From Carboxydothermus hydrogenoformans Z-2901 (GTDB lineage Bacteria > Bacillota > Z-2901 > Carboxydothermales > Carboxydothermaceae), in assembly GCF_000012865.1 (NCBI RefSeq), contig NC_007503.1, forward strand, positions 930,001-994,000: 64,000 nucleotides of DNA. Reading direction: 5' to 3'. Of the stretch, positions 54,896 to 63,982 are shown one piece after another. The notes under the pieces are model-generated. The model saw only the letters and a program-made list of their open reading frames with translations, was not told where the DNA came from and did not search any database. Position 1 is the stretch's first letter, and every line of letters begins with the position of its first letter. Position numbers and translations under genes: made by a program.

Positions 54896-56519
54896 TATGG
54901 TAATAGTTGGAAAATAGCAGAGAAGAGAAAAGGTTTTATTCAAGAACTATTTCATCACCGTCCCTTTGTAGATTTGGCCTTTGCTCAGCAGGGCAAAGAC
55001 CAGCCTTACTAATTTGCGGGCAGTTAGAACCAGCGCTCGCTTATGTTGATGCTTGGTAACTTCGTGATACTTGCTCTGGTAGTAGGCCTTATACTCCTCG
55101 TTGTGCACCCGCAACGAGTTGGCGGCCTGGACCAGGTAGTAACGCAGGTACCGGTTGCCACTTTTTGTCAGGCGGCGTTCTTCGGCGTCAAAATCACCTG
55201 ATTGGTAGCGGGTCCAGGTAAGGCCGGCATATTGAGCCAGAGCGGCTTGATCTTTGAAACGTTTGATATCGCCAATTTCGGCTATAATACCAGCAGCCGA
55301 GATGGGACCGAGGCCTTTTACGCTGGTCAGAGTTTGAGGTATGGCTTCTAACTCCCGGCAAATGACTTTATCCAGTTGTTTAAGCTGCCTTTTGAGGTGG
55401 TCAATATTCTGCAGAGTAAGAGAAAGAGCCACCTCACAAGCTGCGAGCATTTTAGGATTAAGGCGGTAGGCGCGGCGGGCAGCCTGTTTGAGGGCCTTAG
55501 CCATATTCTCAGGTGAGGCTAATTTGTTGTTACCATGGGACTGGATGAACTCTGCCAGCTCTTCCAATGGCATTTCTATAAGTTCATCTGGTGTAAATTC
55601 CTGTAATACCGCCAGGGAGGCCTTACCGAAAGTTTGACTAAAAGGCTTGTCCTGGTGATAATTAGAAAACTTAAGGAAGAGGAGATTTAAGGCTCGGTTC
55701 TGCTCGGCCGTCACCATTTCCACGAGGTGTAGGCGCAGGCGGGTGAGCTGGCGCAAAGGTTCAGTCACTATAGTTTCCCGGCTACAAGGGGTAAGATGGC
55801 CGAAGCGCACCCGTTCTGCGATAACGTAAGCATCGAGGGCATCTGTTTTAGGGCGCTTGGTACCGAAGGCCTTCTTAAAACTGGCCACCATGACGGGGTT
55901 TATTTCATAGACCTTGGTGGAGTATGGCTTAAGCTTTGGGGAGTCCAGGAGGAACTGACGGAGATGGACGCTGTAGATAGAGGTGGCCTCCAACCCTATA
56001 TGAAGTTGCTGGATGTTAAACTTATGGGCGAGACCATCCAGCACCTCAACCATAGCAGAAGCGCCTTCGAGGCTGTTAGGAAAAGACTTAACTGGGGCGA
56101 GCTGTTGCCCTTGCTCATCGAGACACACCAAGTCGCATTTAAGAGCGCTGACATCAATGCCTGCAAAAACGACCCGGGCCAAAGGGTATCCCTCCTTGGG
56201 CTGGCCCAAATTAGGGGCGTGCCCTGCGGGTACGTCGCGTAACAACCTCGCGGGGCGATGAGAGCGTGGCAGGACAGCCGGGGGTGCACCTCTGGCCTGC
56301 TGAATCCAGAAGCCGGCTGGCCTGTTGGCTCAGCTCACGCGTAAGAAACATGCGCCGCACCGCAAGGGTCTCACTCTTACATGAGTAGTCACCGGGTTTA
56401 CTCGGGCTACAGGAGGTATTTAAGAGTGACCCCGGACCAACCTATTTTAATCTTCGCAAAGGCACGCCAAGTTATCAAGAACCCTTAACCTAATTTTTCG
56501 GCTCGGGTTCTATGGTAAT
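54896..56519 (-). mobile_element. IS110-family insertion sequence (bounds uncertain)
   Basis: A DEDD transposase gene with long non-coding flanks, as in IS110 elements, which lack strong terminal inverted repeats. TATGGTAAT occurs at 54896-54904 and again at 56511-56519, on either side of the gene, and may mark the edges. This repeat could be chance, so the coordinates are approximate. About 335 bases upstream of the transposase start are non-coding and structured. Confidence 0.6.
54947..56182 (-). CDS. IS110-family transposase
   Basis: A 411-residue DEDD recombinase. The RuvC-like N-terminal domain begins FAGIDVSALKCDLVCLDEQG, with further acidic residues at LEATSIYSVHL and TDALDAYVIAE. The C-terminal Tnp20 domain has SVKGLGPISAAGIIAEIGDI, YAGLTWTRYQSGDF and the catalytic serine region RLTKSGNRYLRYYLV. 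The start is TTG at 56182 because AAGGAGGG precedes it by six bases; the open frame reaches 56245. The frame is intact, so the element may be active. Confidence 0.88.
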   Translation of the reverse strand: MARVVFAGIDVSALKCDLVCLDEQGQQLAPVKSFPNSLEGASAMVEVLDGLAHKFNIQQLHIGLEATSIYSVHLRQFLLDSPKLKPYSTKVYEINPVMVASFKKAFGTKRPKTDALDAYVIAERVRFGHLTPCSRETIVTEPLRQLTRLRLHLVEMVTAEQNRALNLLFLKFSNYHQDKPFSQTFGKASLAVLQEFTPDELIEMPLEELAEFIQSHGNNKLASPENMAKALKQAARRAYRLNPKMLAACEVALSLTLQNIDHLKRQLKQLDKVICRELEAIPQTLTSVKGLGPISAAGIIAEIGDIKRFKDQAALAQYAGLTWTRYQSGDFDAEERRLTKSGNRYLRYYLVQAANSLRVHNEEYKAYYQSKYHEVTKHQHKRALVLTARKLVRLVFALLSKGQIYKGTVMK

Positions 56520-57259: not shown

Positions 57260-58585
57260 ATGGAAGAAATTTTAGAAATAATTGACCTTACCGAAGAAGG
57301 ACTGGGTGTTGGGAAAAAAGAAAAGCGGGTTTACTTTGTTTCGGGGGATGTCACCGTTGGTGATGTGGTCAAAGTAAAAGTTACCAGCGAAAAAAGAGGC
57401 GTTATTCTGGGAGAGGCTCTGGAAATTTTAACTAATTCTCCTTACCGGGATGTTCCCAGGTGTCCCCATTTTGGTTACTGCGGAGGTTGCAGTTTACAAA
57501 ACCTTGATTACGAGCAGCAGTTAGTACTTAAAAAAACAAAAGTTTATAATATTATGAAAAAAATAGGCCGGATAGATGCTCCTATCAACTCCGTTCTACC
57601 TAATTTTGCTTTTTACCGCTACCGTCAAAAAGTGCATTTCACTTTTGGAAGTAGCCAGAATAAACTGGCTATAGGTTATTTTGACCGAAAAAATAACTGG
57701 TTTCCTGTAACCGATTGTCTGATTGCCGATAAAAGCTTAGTTGAGGTGGCTCATTATGTTACTGAAATATTAGATGCTTTTAAGCTTAAAGCTTACTTTA
57801 ACGATGCTGGAGTGCTACGGCATTTGGTGGTTCGTAAGTCATCAACTACCGGTGAAATCCAGGTAGTGATAACAGCCGTAAAATTAAATTTTAACGTAAA
57901 AGAAATTGCTGCGAAAATTCTTTTAAACCCTGAAATCCAGTCGCTAACTTTTCATGAAAACCCCAAAAAAACCAGGGAAGTCTTTGGTAAAGGGACAGCC
58001 GTTACTTTTGGTACCCGGTATATTACCGAAGAACTATTAGGGATTAGCTATAGGCTAACTCCTCTTTCCTTTTTTCAAATAAATCCGGTGCAGGCGGAAA
58101 AGATATACCGCATTGCCTTAGATTATCTTGATTTGGGAAAAACCGATATGGTTTTTGACGGCTATTCGGGAGTGGGATCCCTGACCTTACCGGCTGCCCG
58201 AATTGCCGCAAGCGTTGTAGGAGTGGAAGAAATTAGGGATGCGGTAGAGGTGGCCAAGACCAATGCTAAACTAAACGGTATAGCGAATGTTAATTTTTTT
58301 GCCGGAAAAGTGGAAGAAAAACTTCCCTGGCTTTTAAAGAAAGGGTATCGTTTTAATAAAATTATCCTGGATCCTCCCCGGGAGGGAGTAAAAAAAGAGG
58401 TTTTAGAGGAGATAATAAAGCTCAATCCGGAACGGATTGTTTATGTTTCATGCAATCCTGCAACCCAGGCCCGGGATTTAAAGATTCTGGCGGAAACCGG
58501 CTATTACCCGGTGGAAATAACACCGGTGGACATGTTTTCCCAGACGATGCACGTGGAGAACGTGGTATTGCTCAAGAAAAAATAA
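57260..58585 (+). CDS. 23S rRNA m5U methyltransferase, RlmD/RumA type
   Basis: A 441-residue SAM-dependent uracil-C5 methyltransferase of the TrmA/RumA family. An N-terminal TRAM domain (EEILEIIDLTEEGLGVGKK) leads to the [4Fe-4S] cysteines in PRCPHFGYCGGCSLQN, the SAM motif FDGYSGVGSLTLPAA, the catalytic RIVYVSCNPATQARDL cysteine and ILDPPREG. The U site in 23S rRNA (1939 or 747 type) cannot be told apart by eye. The ATG follows AGGAGGA. Confidence 0.9.
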   Translation: MEEILEIIDLTEEGLGVGKKEKRVYFVSGDVTVGDVVKVKVTSEKRGVILGEALEILTNSPYRDVPRCPHFGYCGGCSLQNLDYEQQLVLKKTKVYNIMKKIGRIDAPINSVLPNFAFYRYRQKVHFTFGSSQNKLAIGYFDRKNNWFPVTDCLIADKSLVEVAHYVTEILDAFKLKAYFNDAGVLRHLVVRKSSTTGEIQVVITAVKLNFNVKEIAAKILLNPEIQSLTFHENPKKTREVFGKGTAVTFGTRYITEELLGISYRLTPLSFFQINPVQAEKIYRIALDYLDLGKTDMVFDGYSGVGSLTLPAARIAASVVGVEEIRDAVEVAKTNAKLNGIANVNFFAGKVEEKLPWLLKKGYRFNKIILDPPREGVKKEVLEEIIKLNPERIVYVSCNPATQARDLKILAETGYYPVEITPVDMFSQTMHVENVVLLKKK

Positions 58586-58619
58586 CCCCTAAGGCCTTGC
58601 CGAGCAAGGCCTTAGGGGT
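58585..58619. terminator. Strong bidirectional terminator
   Basis: Bases 58585-58600 pair perfectly with 58604-58619 (16 bp, ACCCCTAAGG against CCTTAGGGGT at the base, loop CGA). It separates the RlmD-type gene from the convergent decarboxylase-like gene, starting at the final base of the stop codon. Confidence 0.9.
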
Positions 58620-58620
58620 C

Positions 58621-58923
58621 TTACTTTTCAAAAGCTGCCAAAGAAGTGACTAGGGTTGAGTTTGCTTTGGTGAAGTAAGTAATCCTTAAGACTTCGTTGA
58701 TCTGCTCATCGGTTACACCCATTTGTCTCAAGGTGTTGGCAATAGCCTTTACCCCATCCTTTGCGCCAACAGCGGCATCCACGGCCAGGGAAATCATCCA
58801 CTTGGTTTTTGCGTCCAGGCTGCTTTCCCCGTACACCAGGTCCTGTAGGTCTTTCATCAGTTTGTAAAATTTTTCGTCTCTTGCCTTGATGGCTTCGATA
58901 AACGGCAGTGTATTCATAATCAC
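58621..58923 (-). CDS. Carboxymuconolactone decarboxylase (AhpD-like) family protein without redox cysteines
   Basis: A 100-residue helical protein of the CMD family, with SLDAKTKWMISLAVDAAVGAKDGV and LRQMGVTDEQINEVLRITYF. The AhpD-type CxxC is absent, no cysteine being present in the chain, so peroxidase-partner activity is unlikely. It is the third gene of the MFS-MarR operon, nine bases after marR, and may handle the transported compound. Exact function unknown. Confidence 0.8.
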   Translation of the reverse strand: MIMNTLPFIEAIKARDEKFYKLMKDLQDLVYGESSLDAKTKWMISLAVDAAVGAKDGVKAIANTLRQMGVTDEQINEVLRITYFTKANSTLVTSLAAFEK

Positions 58924-58931
58924 CCCCCTTT

Positions 58932-59375
58932 CTAAAAGCTGCCTCGGTTGGCCCGGATGATATTACTGGCCATTTGCTGTAACAGCCTTTTAATTATTGC
59001 CTTTTCTTTCGGGGACATGCCCTCCAGGAGAATTTCCTGCACCTCTTTCACAATAGCCTCCAGCTGTGGCCTTATGGCTTTCCCCTTCTTTGTAAGAAAA
59101 ATCCTGAAGGAACGTTTGTCCTGCTCATCCGGTCTTCTTTCCACATAACCGGCAGTTTCCAGCTTTTTAATAGCCCGGACAGTGGCTGCCTTATCCACCA
59201 ACAACCGGTCGCTTAAAGCCTGCTGGGACTGGCCATCCTTAAAGTATAAGGAAAAAAGGTAGGCATACTGGCCGGCGCCGATGTGCAGTGGCTCCATTTT
59301 CTTAGCCATATAGGAAATCATGTTGCGCCAGGTAAATGATATATACTTGCCGACGTTATCATTTAAATCAATCAT
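58932..59375 (-). CDS. MarR-family regulator
   Basis: A 147-residue winged-helix regulator, with SQQALSDRLLVDKAATVRAIKKLE as the DNA-binding helix-turn-helix and YVERRPDEQDKRSFRIFLTKKG as the wing. MarR proteins respond to aromatic or oxidant ligands. The ATG at 59375 follows GGGGTGA. It overlaps the transporter gene by 8 bases. The perfect 20-bp palindrome ahead of the operon is a likely target, giving autoregulation. Confidence 0.9.
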   Translation of the reverse strand: MIDLNDNVGKYISFTWRNMISYMAKKMEPLHIGAGQYAYLFSLYFKDGQSQQALSDRLLVDKAATVRAIKKLETAGYVERRPDEQDKRSFRIFLTKKGKAIRPQLEAIVKEVQEILLEGMSPKEKAIIKRLLQQMASNIIRANRGSF

Positions 59376-60555
59376 GTACTTCACCCCGGCCTAATTTTAC
59401 ATTATAGTCTTTTACTACATAGAGGATAAAATACGCCAAGGGCACGAAAAGAATGATTGTGCTAATAAAATACATGGTTGCGATGGAAGTCCGGTTAGCC
59501 AGCCAACCCAAAAGGATAGACCCTATGCCGATTCCCAGGTCCACCGCCGAAAAATAGGTCGAATTAGCTACTCCGCGGCGCTGGGGTTTGACCATGTTGA
59601 TAACCATAGTCTGAATGCTGGGCCAGACCATCCCGTTGCCTGCCCCGATTATTACTGCGGATGTCAAAAAACCGGTTAATCCTTTACTTAAGGAAAGAAG
59701 GAGAAATCCGGCTGCGGTGCATAAGAAGCCTACGGTTATTACGGGAGCTGGCCCCCGGCGGTCCAATAGCTTTCCGGAGGTAGGTCTAACCAGACTTAAA
59801 GCGGCAGCGTAGGCGAGAAAAAAGGTACCGCCGTTTTTGATGCCGATTTCTTTACTGAAAAGGGTGATAAAGGATACTATCCCGCCGTACACCAAGGCCG
59901 AAAAAAACATCACCATCGAAACCGGTAAAACCTTTTTTTCAATAAAGGCATCCAAGGATATAGGGCGTTTTGTCAAGGGCAGTTTTGGGTAACGGATAAA
60001 ATTAGCGATAATCAAAGCCAAAACAACCAGGCCCGAAGCTGTAAAAAACAGTCGACCGTATTGATTTGCTTCCCCCATCAATTGCAGACCGATGAGCGGG
60101 CCAACGGCCATGGCCAGGGTCATGGTTAGTCCGAAGTAGCCGATCCCTTCGCCCCGGCGCTGCGGTGGCAGGATATCAGCCGCGATGGTACTCCCACCGA
60201 CGGTGGTCACCCCCCAGCAAAAACCGTGAAGCAGTCGGAGCATTAAGAGAAAAAAGAGATTGGTTGCAAAATAATAGCTTCCCATAAAGAGGGCGAAAAG
60301 TGCCAATGCCCAAAGGAAGACCTTCCTCCGGCCCACGGAGTCCAGGGCATATCCGCCCAAAGGCCTTATCGCCACGGCAGATAATGTATACACTCCCGTA
60401 ACTAAACCTACCTGACTTTCATTGGCTCCTATAACTTTTGTCGCATAGACCGGCATAGTGGGAAGTAGAAAATAAAAGCCTGCAGCCATAAGGAAGTTTA
60501 CTATCCATAGCAGCGTAAAATCCTTTGACCAGATTGTTTCCTGGTGTTCTGCCAT
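59368..60555 (-). CDS. Major facilitator superfamily efflux transporter
   Basis: A 395-residue transporter with twelve hydrophobic segments. The loop between helices 2 and 3 reads RPLGGYALDSVGRRKVFLWA, the standard MFS motif A, repeated in weaker form as RPTSGKLLDRRGPAPVITVG between helices 8 and 9. Drug or metabolite export is likely, given the MarR partner. The gene is driven from an unusual promoter partly built by an inserted IS21 end. Confidence 0.9.
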   Translation of the reverse strand: MAEHQETIWSKDFTLLWIVNFLMAAGFYFLLPTMPVYATKVIGANESQVGLVTGVYTLSAVAIRPLGGYALDSVGRRKVFLWALALFALFMGSYYFATNLFFLLMLRLLHGFCWGVTTVGGSTIAADILPPQRRGEGIGYFGLTMTLAMAVGPLIGLQLMGEANQYGRLFFTASGLVVLALIIANFIRYPKLPLTKRPISLDAFIEKKVLPVSMVMFFSALVYGGIVSFITLFSKEIGIKNGGTFFLAYAAALSLVRPTSGKLLDRRGPAPVITVGFLCTAAGFLLLSLSKGLTGFLTSAVIIGAGNGMVWPSIQTMVINMVKPQRRGVANSTYFSAVDLGIGIGSILLGWLANRTSIATMYFISTIILFVPLAYFILYVVKDYNVKLGRGEVHD

Positions 60556-60575
60556 GTTCTTAGTCCCCTTTTAAT

Positions 60576-60595
60576 TTAGTTGACTTATCAACTAA
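60576..60595 (-). promoter_or_regulatory. Perfect palindromic MarR-type operator
   Basis: TTAGTTGA, a CTTA spacer, then TCAACTAA form a 20-bp 8-4-8 palindrome. It lies just downstream of the -10 box, over the probable transcription start of the transporter-marR operon, where a MarR dimer would block initiation. Confidence 0.75.
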
Positions 60596-60599
60596 TTAT

Positions 60600-60628
60600 A
60601 TAATAAAACATATCGGATTAAATGTCAA
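60600..60628 (-). promoter_or_regulatory. Hybrid promoter: IS21-derived -35 with native -10
   Basis: Read leftward, TTGACA at 60628-60623 belongs to the last six bases of the IS21 end, and TATTAT at 60605-60600 belongs to the host DNA. The spacer is exactly 17 bases. The pre-insertion -35, now stranded at 62802-62807, reads TTGATA with the same spacing. Confidence 0.75.
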
Positions 60629-60692
60629 TAGCGGATTTAAATTGACCCATTTTCAGCGGTTTTAAATTGACCCACCCTGGCTTTTTTTAAAA

Positions 60693-61463
60693 TTAAGCTT
60701 TGACATGTGGATTACCGTAGAGACCGGTTTTTAACCTGTCTTTTAGGCGGTAGCTGTTGCCCCTTATGTTGATTATATGGGCATGGTGTAATAGCCTATC
60801 CAACACTGCAGTGGCAAGCACCGGGTCTCCCATGAGCTCCCCCCATTCCCCAAAGCTTTTGTTGCTGGTGAGGATGATGCTCCCCTTTTCATACCGGGCA
60901 CTAATTAGCTGGAAAAAGAGGTTTGAGCCAAGGCCATCTAAAGGGAGATAGCCCACTTCGTCGATAATAAGGAGCTTGGGCCTAAGGTAGATCCTCATTC
61001 GCCTTTCCAACCGGCTTTCTTTATGGGCTGTTTTTAGGTCTTCAATGAGCCTGGAAAGGCTCGTAAAGTAAACTGATATGCCCTGGGATAGGGCTTCTAT
61101 AGCAAGGGCTACGGCAAGGTGCGTCTTCCCTACTCCAGGCGGCCCAAGGAATATTACGTTTTCTGCCCGGTGGACAAAGGCCATTGTGGCAAGCTCTCTT
61201 ATCAGTTTTTCATCGATACTGGGCTGGAAGGTAAAGTCAAATTCCTTCAGGGTCTTTTTATACGGAAGCCGGGCAAGTTTTGACCTTACCTCGACATTTC
61301 GCCTTTGCCTTTCGGCAAGTTCAGTTTCAAGCAGATCATTTAAGAAATCAAGATATGTGCGGTTTTCCCGCTGGGCCCTTTCCAGGAGGGCGTCAAGAAA
61401 AGCTGCTGCGCTTAAAAGCCCAAGTTCTTCAAGGTGGGACCGAGCTTTTTCAAGGTCTATCAT
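60693..61463 (-). CDS. istB: IS21 transposition helper IstB
   Basis: A 256-residue AAA+ ATPase related to DnaC, which delivers target DNA to IstA. Walker A is FLGPPGVGKTHLAVALA (about residue 107) and Walker B is LLIIDEVGYLPLDG, with the SNKSFGEWGE sensor region. The ATG overlaps the istA stop as ATGA, the usual coupling in IS21. Confidence 0.94.
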   Translation of the reverse strand: MIDLEKARSHLEELGLLSAAAFLDALLERAQRENRTYLDFLNDLLETELAERQRRNVEVRSKLARLPYKKTLKEFDFTFQPSIDEKLIRELATMAFVHRAENVIFLGPPGVGKTHLAVALAIEALSQGISVYFTSLSRLIEDLKTAHKESRLERRMRIYLRPKLLIIDEVGYLPLDGLGSNLFFQLISARYEKGSIILTSNKSFGEWGELMGDPVLATAVLDRLLHHAHIINIRGNSYRLKDRLKTGLYGNPHVKA

Positions 61464-62689
61464 ACTGTGCCTACCTCCAGGAGGCTTTCGTAAACCCCCA
61501 GAGGACGCTTCTCAACTTCCAGGGAAGATAACTTGATCGCCTTCGGCCTGGGATAAAACATGCCCTCCGCTTCTTTTAGACCCTTATACTGGTCTTTGAG
61601 AAAAACGGTGCTCCTTGAACGGTAATGCTTTTCGTGGACAGCTATCACCTTCCCATCATAGAGGATTTCGATTTTACCGTTTTTGTCCCTTACAACCACC
61701 TCTTTTCCGCTATACTGCCAGGGAACGCCATATCTTACGCCGTCGAAACTCAAAAAGCCGTCTTTGTGAACTTTCCTTGCTTCTTCCAGGAATTTTTGGT
61801 ATTTATCAAGGGCAGGCAGGGGTTTGAGGTTTTCCTTCTTCAGACGGTCAATAGGCCTTTCCCCGGTAGTACCGTGTATTCTCCTGTTTTTCTTTTCGCA
61901 CCACACTATTGCCTGGCGGTTTAAATCACCGTAGTCTACGAACTTCCTACCCGGCAGGAAGTTGTTTTTGACAAAATCTATGCCGCTTTCTACCTTGCCT
62001 TTTGTTTGGGGGCGCCGTGCCCTGCACACTTTAGAAATAAATCCAAGGGTCGCCGCAAGGTCTTCAAAGGTAGGGTTCCATATGGGCTTTTTGTTTTCAC
62101 CGGTGCCCAGTATTACGGTTTTCATTCTATCGGTAAGAACTATATCGGTTACTCCGCCGAAGTATTCAAACCCGTGGATCAAGCAGCGGATGAAGGTACG
62201 GACGTCGCAGCGGTTTGTGAATTCCACGTATATGGCTCTGGAGTAGCCCAGCACCATGACGAAGACGTAAAGCTTACGTATTTCACCGGTTTCCTCGTCA
62301 ATGTAGGTGTATTCGCCCCAGTCGACCTGGGCTTGCTGGCCAGGCTTGGTTTCATAGCGGCATACGGCAGGGACCTGTTTTGGAGGTCTAAATTGTCTTA
62401 CATAGTCCCTTAAAATAGTGCGACCTCCGGTGTAGCCTTCTTCCTTGATTCTTTCATAAATGACTTCGCAATTGAATATCCCCAGATTCATGAGCTCTTG
62501 AATAGTATCTTTGTAGGGGTCAAGCTTTGAACCTCTTTTGGGACGGGGCTTCCTTTCAGGAATGCCCTCTGCTCTGAGGTATTTTCTTACCGTATTTCTG
62601 GAATGCCCTGTTTCTCGTGCGATTGCACGAATACTCTTGCCTCTTGCTTGTAATTCATGTAACATGATAATAGATCCACTCCCTAGCAT
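61460..62689 (-). CDS. istA: IS21 transposase IstA
   Basis: A 409-residue DDE transposase. The N-terminal helix-turn-helix region SIRAIARETGHSRNTVRKYLRA binds the ends. The catalytic core has QAQVDWGEYTYID (first aspartate), VLTDRMKTVIL (second) and KGKVESGIDFVKNNF (glutamate). A C-terminal beta-barrel region has DGVRYGVPWQYSGKEVVVR. The ATG at 62689 follows GGAGGG; a second ATG eight codons later is possible. Confidence 0.94.
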   Translation of the reverse strand: MLGSGSIIMLHELQARGKSIRAIARETGHSRNTVRKYLRAEGIPERKPRPKRGSKLDPYKDTIQELMNLGIFNCEVIYERIKEEGYTGGRTILRDYVRQFRPPKQVPAVCRYETKPGQQAQVDWGEYTYIDEETGEIRKLYVFVMVLGYSRAIYVEFTNRCDVRTFIRCLIHGFEYFGGVTDIVLTDRMKTVILGTGENKKPIWNPTFEDLAATLGFISKVCRARRPQTKGKVESGIDFVKNNFLPGRKFVDYGDLNRQAIVWCEKKNRRIHGTTGERPIDRLKKENLKPLPALDKYQKFLEEARKVHKDGFLSFDGVRYGVPWQYSGKEVVVRDKNGKIEILYDGKVIAVHEKHYRSRSTVFLKDQYKGLKEAEGMFYPRPKAIKLSSLEVEKRPLGVYESLLEVGTV

Positions 62690-62906
62690 TTATTTCCCTC
62701 CGATCCTTTGCAGTGGTATCAGAGGGATATTTCGCCAGGGGGTGGGTCATTTCCTTTTCGTTGTTCCTGGGTCAATTATATACCGGCGGTGACAGATTAA
62801 ATATCAACTTAACTTTTGCAGTTCGATTTTGGAAATAAAGCCTTAACATAAAACATGGTTGTGGTGCAGGAAAGAACTGAGCTCAATATAAATTTTAGGC
62901 TTTAAG

Positions 62907-62915
62907 TGTTATAAT
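62907..62915 (+). promoter_or_regulatory. Extended -10 promoter of the aldo/keto reductase gene
   Basis: TGTTATAAT is a full extended -10 element 42 bases ahead of the start codon. No good -35 is present, as is normal for extended -10 promoters. Confidence 0.6.
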
Positions 62916-62956
62916 ATTTTTATGATAAAAGATGCACATCAAGAGGAGTGGAGATG

Positions 62957-63982
62957 ATGGAATATCGAAAAATTGGTAAAAGCGGACTTAAAGTCAGCCG
63001 TCTTGGTTTTGGAGGGATTCCTATTCAAAGGGTGGAACTTCGGGATGTACGGCCGGTTTTGGATGTCTTAAAAGAGGGGGGAGTTAATTTTATTGACTCT
63101 GCCCGGGCTTATACGGTAAGTGAAGGTTTTATCGGTGAGGCGATAAAGCACGACCGCAAAGATTGGATAGTGGCAACGAAGTCAATGGCCAGAACTTATT
63201 CCGAAATGGCCAGGGATATTGATATTTCGCTTGCTGAACTTCAAACCGATTATATTGATATTTATCAGCTTCATAATATCAAAAGTGAGGAAGAGATGGA
63301 CAAGGTTTTAGCACCCGGTGGGGCTTTGGAAGCTTTGGTGGAGGCCAAAAAAGCGGGAAAAATTCGGGCTATTGGGGTTACCACCCATAATAAAGATTTA
63401 TTAAAAAAGCTTTTAGCGGCTTTTAAGTTTGAAACGATGATGTTACCGTTAAATTTGGTGGAAACCGATAAAGAAGATGCGTTTATTCATGCGCAAGAAT
63501 TAGGGGTTGGCACCATTGCTATGAAGCCTTTAGCCGGGGGCTTTTTTGGTGAAAACCGGGAGTTTCCGGCGGATGTGGCTCTTTATTATTTAAAAAACTT
63601 TTCTGCCGTTGATGTTGTTCTGGTTGGGATGGCGGATGTAAACGAAGCCCGGCAAAACCTTGACATATTTAATTCGGAAGTGGATTTAGCGGCGAAGATG
63701 GAAGCTTTAAAAGAAAAAGCTTCCTTTGCTGCCCGGGAGTTTTGTCGCCGCTGTGGCTACTGCCAGCCCTGTCCGGTGGGGATTGGCATTCCTACAATTT
63801 TTGTGTTAGAAACTTATTACGACCGCTACGGCCTTCCTGGCTGGGCAAAGGAACGCTACAAAAATCTAACGGTTAAAGCCGATGCCTGTCAGGAGTGTGG
63901 CCTTTGCGAAGCACGCTGTCCTTATGGACTTCCTATTAGACGGAAACTTAAAGAAGTTCACCGGAAGCTTTCTTTAAAGTAA
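62957..63982 (+). CDS. Aldo/keto reductase with C-terminal ferredoxin-like Fe-S domain
   Basis: A 341-residue protein joining an aldo/keto reductase barrel to an iron-sulfur tail. The barrel shows GKSGLKVSRLGFGGIPIQR, INFIDSARAYTVSEGFIG with the catalytic Asp and Tyr, and DIYQLHNIKSEEEM with the histidine. The tail has two cysteine groups, FCRRCGYCQPCPVGIGIP and CQECGLCEARCPYGLP, able to hold two [4Fe-4S] clusters. Such proteins probably take electrons from ferredoxin rather than only NADPH; substrate unknown. The ATG at 62957 is best spaced from GAGGAG; starts one and three codons earlier exist. Confidence 0.88.
   Translation: MEYRKIGKSGLKVSRLGFGGIPIQRVELRDVRPVLDVLKEGGVNFIDSARAYTVSEGFIGEAIKHDRKDWIVATKSMARTYSEMARDIDISLAELQTDYIDIYQLHNIKSEEEMDKVLAPGGALEALVEAKKAGKIRAIGVTTHNKDLLKKLLAAFKFETMMLPLNLVETDKEDAFIHAQELGVGTIAMKPLAGGFFGENREFPADVALYYLKNFSAVDVVLVGMADVNEARQNLDIFNSEVDLAAKMEALKEKASFAAREFCRRCGYCQPCPVGIGIPTIFVLETYYDRYGLPGWAKERYKNLTVKADACQECGLCEARCPYGLPIRRKLKEVHRKLSLK

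Follow-up and report, generated by a model that had tools for sequence, protein, structure and literature searches.

What transcribes an operon once an insertion sequence has landed across its promoter, and does the insertion raise its expression? This question is posed by an IS21-family element directly upstream of a three-gene operon in Carboxydothermus hydrogenoformans Z-2901, which encodes a major facilitator superfamily (MFS) transporter, a MarR-family regulator, and a carboxymuconolactone decarboxylase (CMD)/AhpD-like protein. The locus lies in a 64,000-nucleotide stretch of the chromosome (positions 930,001 to 994,000 of NC_007503.1), hereafter the window. An initial annotation of this DNA proposed that the insertion had replaced a near-consensus -35 hexamer with a perfect one, that control by MarR had survived, and that the resulting higher expression of an efflux pump was possibly a selected event. 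We found no paper in the literature that deals with this insertion or with how the MFS-marR-CMD operon is expressed. Here, we examine the insertion by comparison with relatives of the operon and of the element, and with the genome as a whole.

The insertion element and its target site

The element is intact and carries istA followed by istB in overlapping genes, the gene arrangement of the IS21 family (Table 1). The istA product, a DDE transposase, matches NF033546 (304 bits; cut-off 160) and the istB product, an AAA+ helper, matches NF038214 (303.8 bits; cut-off 200). The termini, TGTCAATAGC...GCGGTGACA, have the TG...CA form of the family, and each end contains multiple repeats, with two copies of AGCGGWTTTAAATTGACCCA at the right end and two TGGGTCA motifs at the left end. 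Both genes are transcribed leftward, which makes the end at 60623 the right end of the element. A long transposase-like ORF, which by eye resembles the IS110 type, is found near the IS21 site at 54947-56245.

Two copies of GATTAAA flank the element. This 7-bp target duplication differs in length from those of the seven relatives with readable duplications, which are 5 bp in five cases and 4 bp in two, and from the published value for IS21, 5 bp (PMC10122671). A small indel after the insertion may lie behind the difference. The genome contains a second copy of the element (L066, G000:C1:2241522-2245396) that is 98% identical and is split near its left end by approximately 1.7 kb of other DNA. 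No target duplication is visible at this second copy.

Table 1. Features of the insertion site and the operon, in window coordinates
Feature	Position	Strand	Remarks
CMD/AhpD-like protein, 100 aa	58621..58923	minus	Third gene of the operon
MarR-family regulator, 150 aa	58932..59384	minus	
MFS transporter, 395 aa	59368..60555	minus	
MarR-type palindrome TTAGTTGACTTATCAACTAA, presumed operator	60576..60595		Kept in the insertion-free homologue
TATAAT overlapping TATTAT	60595..60600	minus	22 bp from TTGACA; TACAAT at the same place in the insertion-free homologue
Host -10, TATTAT	60600..60605	minus	17 bp from TTGACA; kept in the insertion-free homologue
GATTAAA target duplication, right-end copy	60616..60622		Single copy in the insertion-free homologue
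IS21-family element, intact, 2,172 bp	60623..62794	minus	TG...CA ends, fixed by flank comparison and relatives
Right-end TTGACA of the element, facing outward; hybrid-promoter -35	60623..60628	minus	Shared by the right ends of nearly all relatives
Right-end repeat R1, presumed IstA-binding	60630..60649	minus	Adjoins the -35
Right-end repeat R2, presumed IstA-binding	60655..60674	minus	
istB helper ATPase, 256 aa, intact	60693..61463	minus	
istA transposase, 409 aa, intact	61460..62689	minus	
Left-end TATAAT of the element, the -10 part of an IS21 junction promoter serving istA	62775..62780	minus	Kept in nearly all relatives
GATTAAA target duplication, left-end copy	62795..62801		
Displaced native -35, TTGATA	62802..62807	minus	Spaced 19 bp from the left-end TATATA and 21 bp from the left-end TATAAT

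The promoter before and after insertion

When the element and one copy of GATTAAA are removed in silico, TTGATA comes to lie 17 bp from the host TATTAT, as the initial annotation had proposed. The same promoter is found in an insertion-free homologue of the operon from Carboxydocella thermautotrophica (L008/L023), which carries TTGATA-TTTAATCTGAAATGTAT-TATTAT at the homologous place, with -35, spacing, and -10 identical to those of the reconstructed empty site. The native -35 is therefore no artefact of the reconstruction, and GATTAAA was single before the insertion. Based on a second promoter-like match in the homologue, CTGAAA-18-TATAAT, the native start could be other than the one assumed here.

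In the present arrangement, the TTGACA at the right end of the element reads outward and is followed by the 17-bp spacer TTTAATCCGATATGTTT and then by TATTAT. This is an IS-borne -35 within 16-18 bp of a host -10, the layout of a fusion promoter. The coordinates previously given for these hexamers are all correct, and the -35 was exchanged with no change of spacing, from TTGATA-17 to TTGACA-17. In a consensus scan of positions 58500 to 63000, these boxes score 11 of 12 and rank first among the promoter-like matches of both strands. The same region contains four promoter-like matches compared to 6.3 in shuffled sequences, and we therefore rejected a consensus match alone as evidence for a promoter. 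The TATAAT that overlaps the host -10 was also rejected as a -10, since its distance from TTGACA is too long for a usual sigma-A promoter.

The palindrome downstream of the fusion promoter consists of 8-bp arms flanking CTTA, and its sole exact match in the genome is at this site. The insertion left it intact, as had been noted, and the Carboxydocella homologue carries the same palindrome 8 bp further downstream. The presence of marR inside the operon, together with a palindromic site overlapping the start of the promoter, is the organization of a MarR-autoregulated transporter operon, suggesting that MarR binds here. Given that the operator is untouched and that the start of the fusion promoter adjoins it, MarR repression should persist.

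Taken together, the element, its target duplication, the native promoter of the insertion-free relative, and the conserved IS end are best explained, in our judgement with good probability, by an IS21/host fusion promoter, formed when the element entered the promoter of an operon shared by horizontal transfer, with the presumed operator kept so that MarR repression should persist. The element would have transposed into the MFS-marR-CMD promoter with a cut immediately downstream of the native TTGATA. The outward TTGACA of its right end would then have taken the place of the native -35, 17 bp from the host TATTAT, and the operon would most likely now be transcribed from the IS/host fusion promoter, with a start adjoining the intact MarR-type operator. 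From this layout we infer that the fusion promoter is in use and that promoter strength has been altered.

Why the element ends in a -35 hexamer

Among the copies in this genome and in relatives, the outward terminal hexamer of the right end is TTGACA in all but one, the exception being CTGACA in L062. Left ends have TATAAT 14 bp inside the end in nearly all cases and TACAAT in two. IS21 itself has a -35 in its right end and a -10 in its left end, whose joint promoter is weak when the element is alone and strong when two copies are in tandem (PMC10122671). The elements studied here likewise have a right-end -35 and a left-end -10 that are joined in tandems. For example, in L055 (G080:C24:48288-52641), two related copies are arranged head to tail; the 4 bp between them, CTTA, bring TTGACA to 18 bp from TACAAT and make a natural junction promoter of the (IS21)2 kind. 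TTGACA thus serves the element itself as one half, the -35, of its junction promoter, and the fusion promoter at the operon follows incidentally from a feature that is standard in IS21. The outward TTGACA, which almost all relatives of the element retain, is no special adaptation. That IS21 ends can carry outward -35 boxes, which the initial annotation had stated as known, is borne out both by the published work (PMC10122671) and by the right ends of these relatives.

Identity and history of the operon

The only Pfam match of the MFS protein is MFS_1, and no NCBIfam equivalog scored above its cut-off; the name efflux pump given to it earlier is not upheld by these matches. Across all three genes, the operon (58621-60555) shares approximately 90% DNA identity with L023:5001-6935 of Carboxydocella thermautotrophica, a member of another family. 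In a genome of the same genus (G001), an aldo/keto reductase gene directly follows rumA, with no transporter operon in between. This absence suggests that the MFS-marR-CMD operon is a lineage-specific block that was probably acquired horizontally, from thermophile to thermophile. A search of the genome collections for further insertion-free copies of the operon found only the one close relative. Because the IS is missing from the Carboxydocella promoter and is present in near-identical copies within Carboxydothermus, the insertion most likely came after the arrival of the operon. In both genomes the end of the operon faces a convergent RNA uracil methyltransferase-like (rumA/RlmD) gene (57260-58585 in the window and L023:7090-8526), and a similar GCCTTGC...GCAAGGC hairpin follows the CMD gene, by chance or as a shared insertion context.

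Was the promoter improved?

We used pattern searches over the single-contig genome of 2,401,520 bases to compare the two hexamers. TTGACA precedes TATAAT by 16-18 bp at 17 places (1 in the reversed control), compared to 4 places for TTGATA (2 in the control). Ahead of TATTAT at the same spacing, TTGACA is found at five places in the 2.4-Mb genome, including the present site, and at none in the reversed control. The preference for TTGACA ahead of TATAAT makes a gain plausible. The insertion also swapped the sequence upstream of the -35, from the native A-rich AAAAGTTAAG to the IS-borne AAATCCGCTA (A+T content over 20 bp of 0.65 versus 0.60), a change that could offset the gain from the -35. IstA has been reported to bind over and occlude the end promoters of IS21 (PMC10122671); by analogy, IstA may cover the -35 of the fusion promoter in the cell, in which case control of the operon may not be exerted by MarR alone. 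We consider the chances of a real expression increase to be roughly even, and a modest rise in maximal expression is plausible.

One interpretation of this site, compatible with a fusion promoter, is that the replacement was neutral: this insertion, neither helpful nor harmful, would have persisted because the IS end chanced to rebuild a -35 at a suitable distance, while those that abolished promoter function disappeared. The exact preservation of promoter geometry fits this account. In a placement test, the element was set into the empty intergenic region (213 bp) in all 412 possible combinations of position and orientation, and nine of them left the IS -35 16-18 bp away from a -10-like hexamer of the host; six of these were at the operon promoter and one was exactly at the native -35. 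With approximately 1.5-2% of placements rebuilding a -35, survivorship alone can give the observed outcome. In addition, the right ends of the other copies in the genome have no obvious -10 next to them. The genomic preference for TTGACA over TTGATA argues on the other side, as it leads one to expect some change in strength, and we regard neutrality as evenly balanced between being right and being wrong. Selection of the insertion, as suggested by the initial annotation, is unsupported over survivorship, as the neutral account fits equally well.

Alternatively, the main effect of the insertion could be read-through, with transcription entering the operon from the co-directional istA-istB genes rather than starting at a fusion promoter. 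Between istB (60693) and the start of the MFS gene, the minus strand showed no terminator-like site, which would leave the way clear for such transcription. A lone IS21 copy is reported to have only a weak promoter (PMC10122671), however, and istA and istB of ISKpn7 gave RPKM values of 0-1 (PMC6286996). Moreover, the displaced host -35 is poorly spaced from the left-end -10, at 19-21 bp, and these points make read-through quite improbable as the main effect. It is also conceivable that the position reflects target choice, such that this IS subfamily lands just 3' of TTGATA- or TTGACA-like sites, which either resemble its own right end or supply a -35 for istA. Of 33 sites, three have TTGATA or TTGACA no more than 14 bp from the left end, compared to 0.29 expected (P ~0.002), a post hoc count that includes the site in the window. 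In two other genomes (the left-end flanks of L077 and L062), TTGATA and the left-end TATAAT are 16 bp apart, and istA may there have gained a -35 from the host; the G080 tandem pair shows the same layout, and some in vitro insertions of IS21 appeared clustered near promoters (PMC10122671). Against this, the pattern was tested after the window had been seen, two sites are left once the window is set aside, 30 of the 33 sites have neither hexamer, and IS21 is reported to lack clear target specificity (PMC10122671). A search for a strict target-site consensus of the element found none and gave only the weak post hoc TTGATA signal. We consider target choice unlikely. Still more doubtful is a reciprocal exchange of -35 hexamers, in which the operon would receive TTGACA and istA would receive TTGATA, the subfamily may favour positions immediately 3' of -35-like sequences, and IstA bound at the right end may control the operon jointly with MarR.

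Comparison with known systems

The fusion promoter proposed here adds a further example of gene activation mediated by IS21, an effect that is well known already, and the general picture of that effect stays as before. What the site offers is a clean, single-event exchange of half a promoter by an IS, which can be compared with an insertion-free homologue while the operator and spacing are constant. It would permit direct measurement of the effect of an IS end on a regulated promoter. In Paracoccus, too, captured elements of the IS21 family have been found to drive the genes downstream of them (PMC3281130). In the (IS21)2 tandem junction promoter, the same outward right-end -35 is used with a left-end -10 (PMC10122671), whereas here the -10 is the host's. 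A fusion promoter for a host operon is also made by IS5, which is reported to activate a silent operon at Escherichia coli fucAO (PMC11894529); at the present site, a native promoter of nearly equal consensus existed beforehand. The closest parallels are the IS21-type fusion promoters that activate cepA and blaKPC (PMC9330008). ISBf1, an IS21-like element, lies upstream of cepA in Bacteroides fragilis, and this system has a known resistance phenotype, while none is known for the MFS-marR-CMD operon. ISKpn7 similarly acts on the downstream blaKPC gene in Tn4401. In contrast to ISKpn7 and blaKPC, the target in Carboxydothermus hydrogenoformans is a chromosomal, apparently self-regulated operon of a thermophile, in which the native -35 was replaced in place and no promoter was added.
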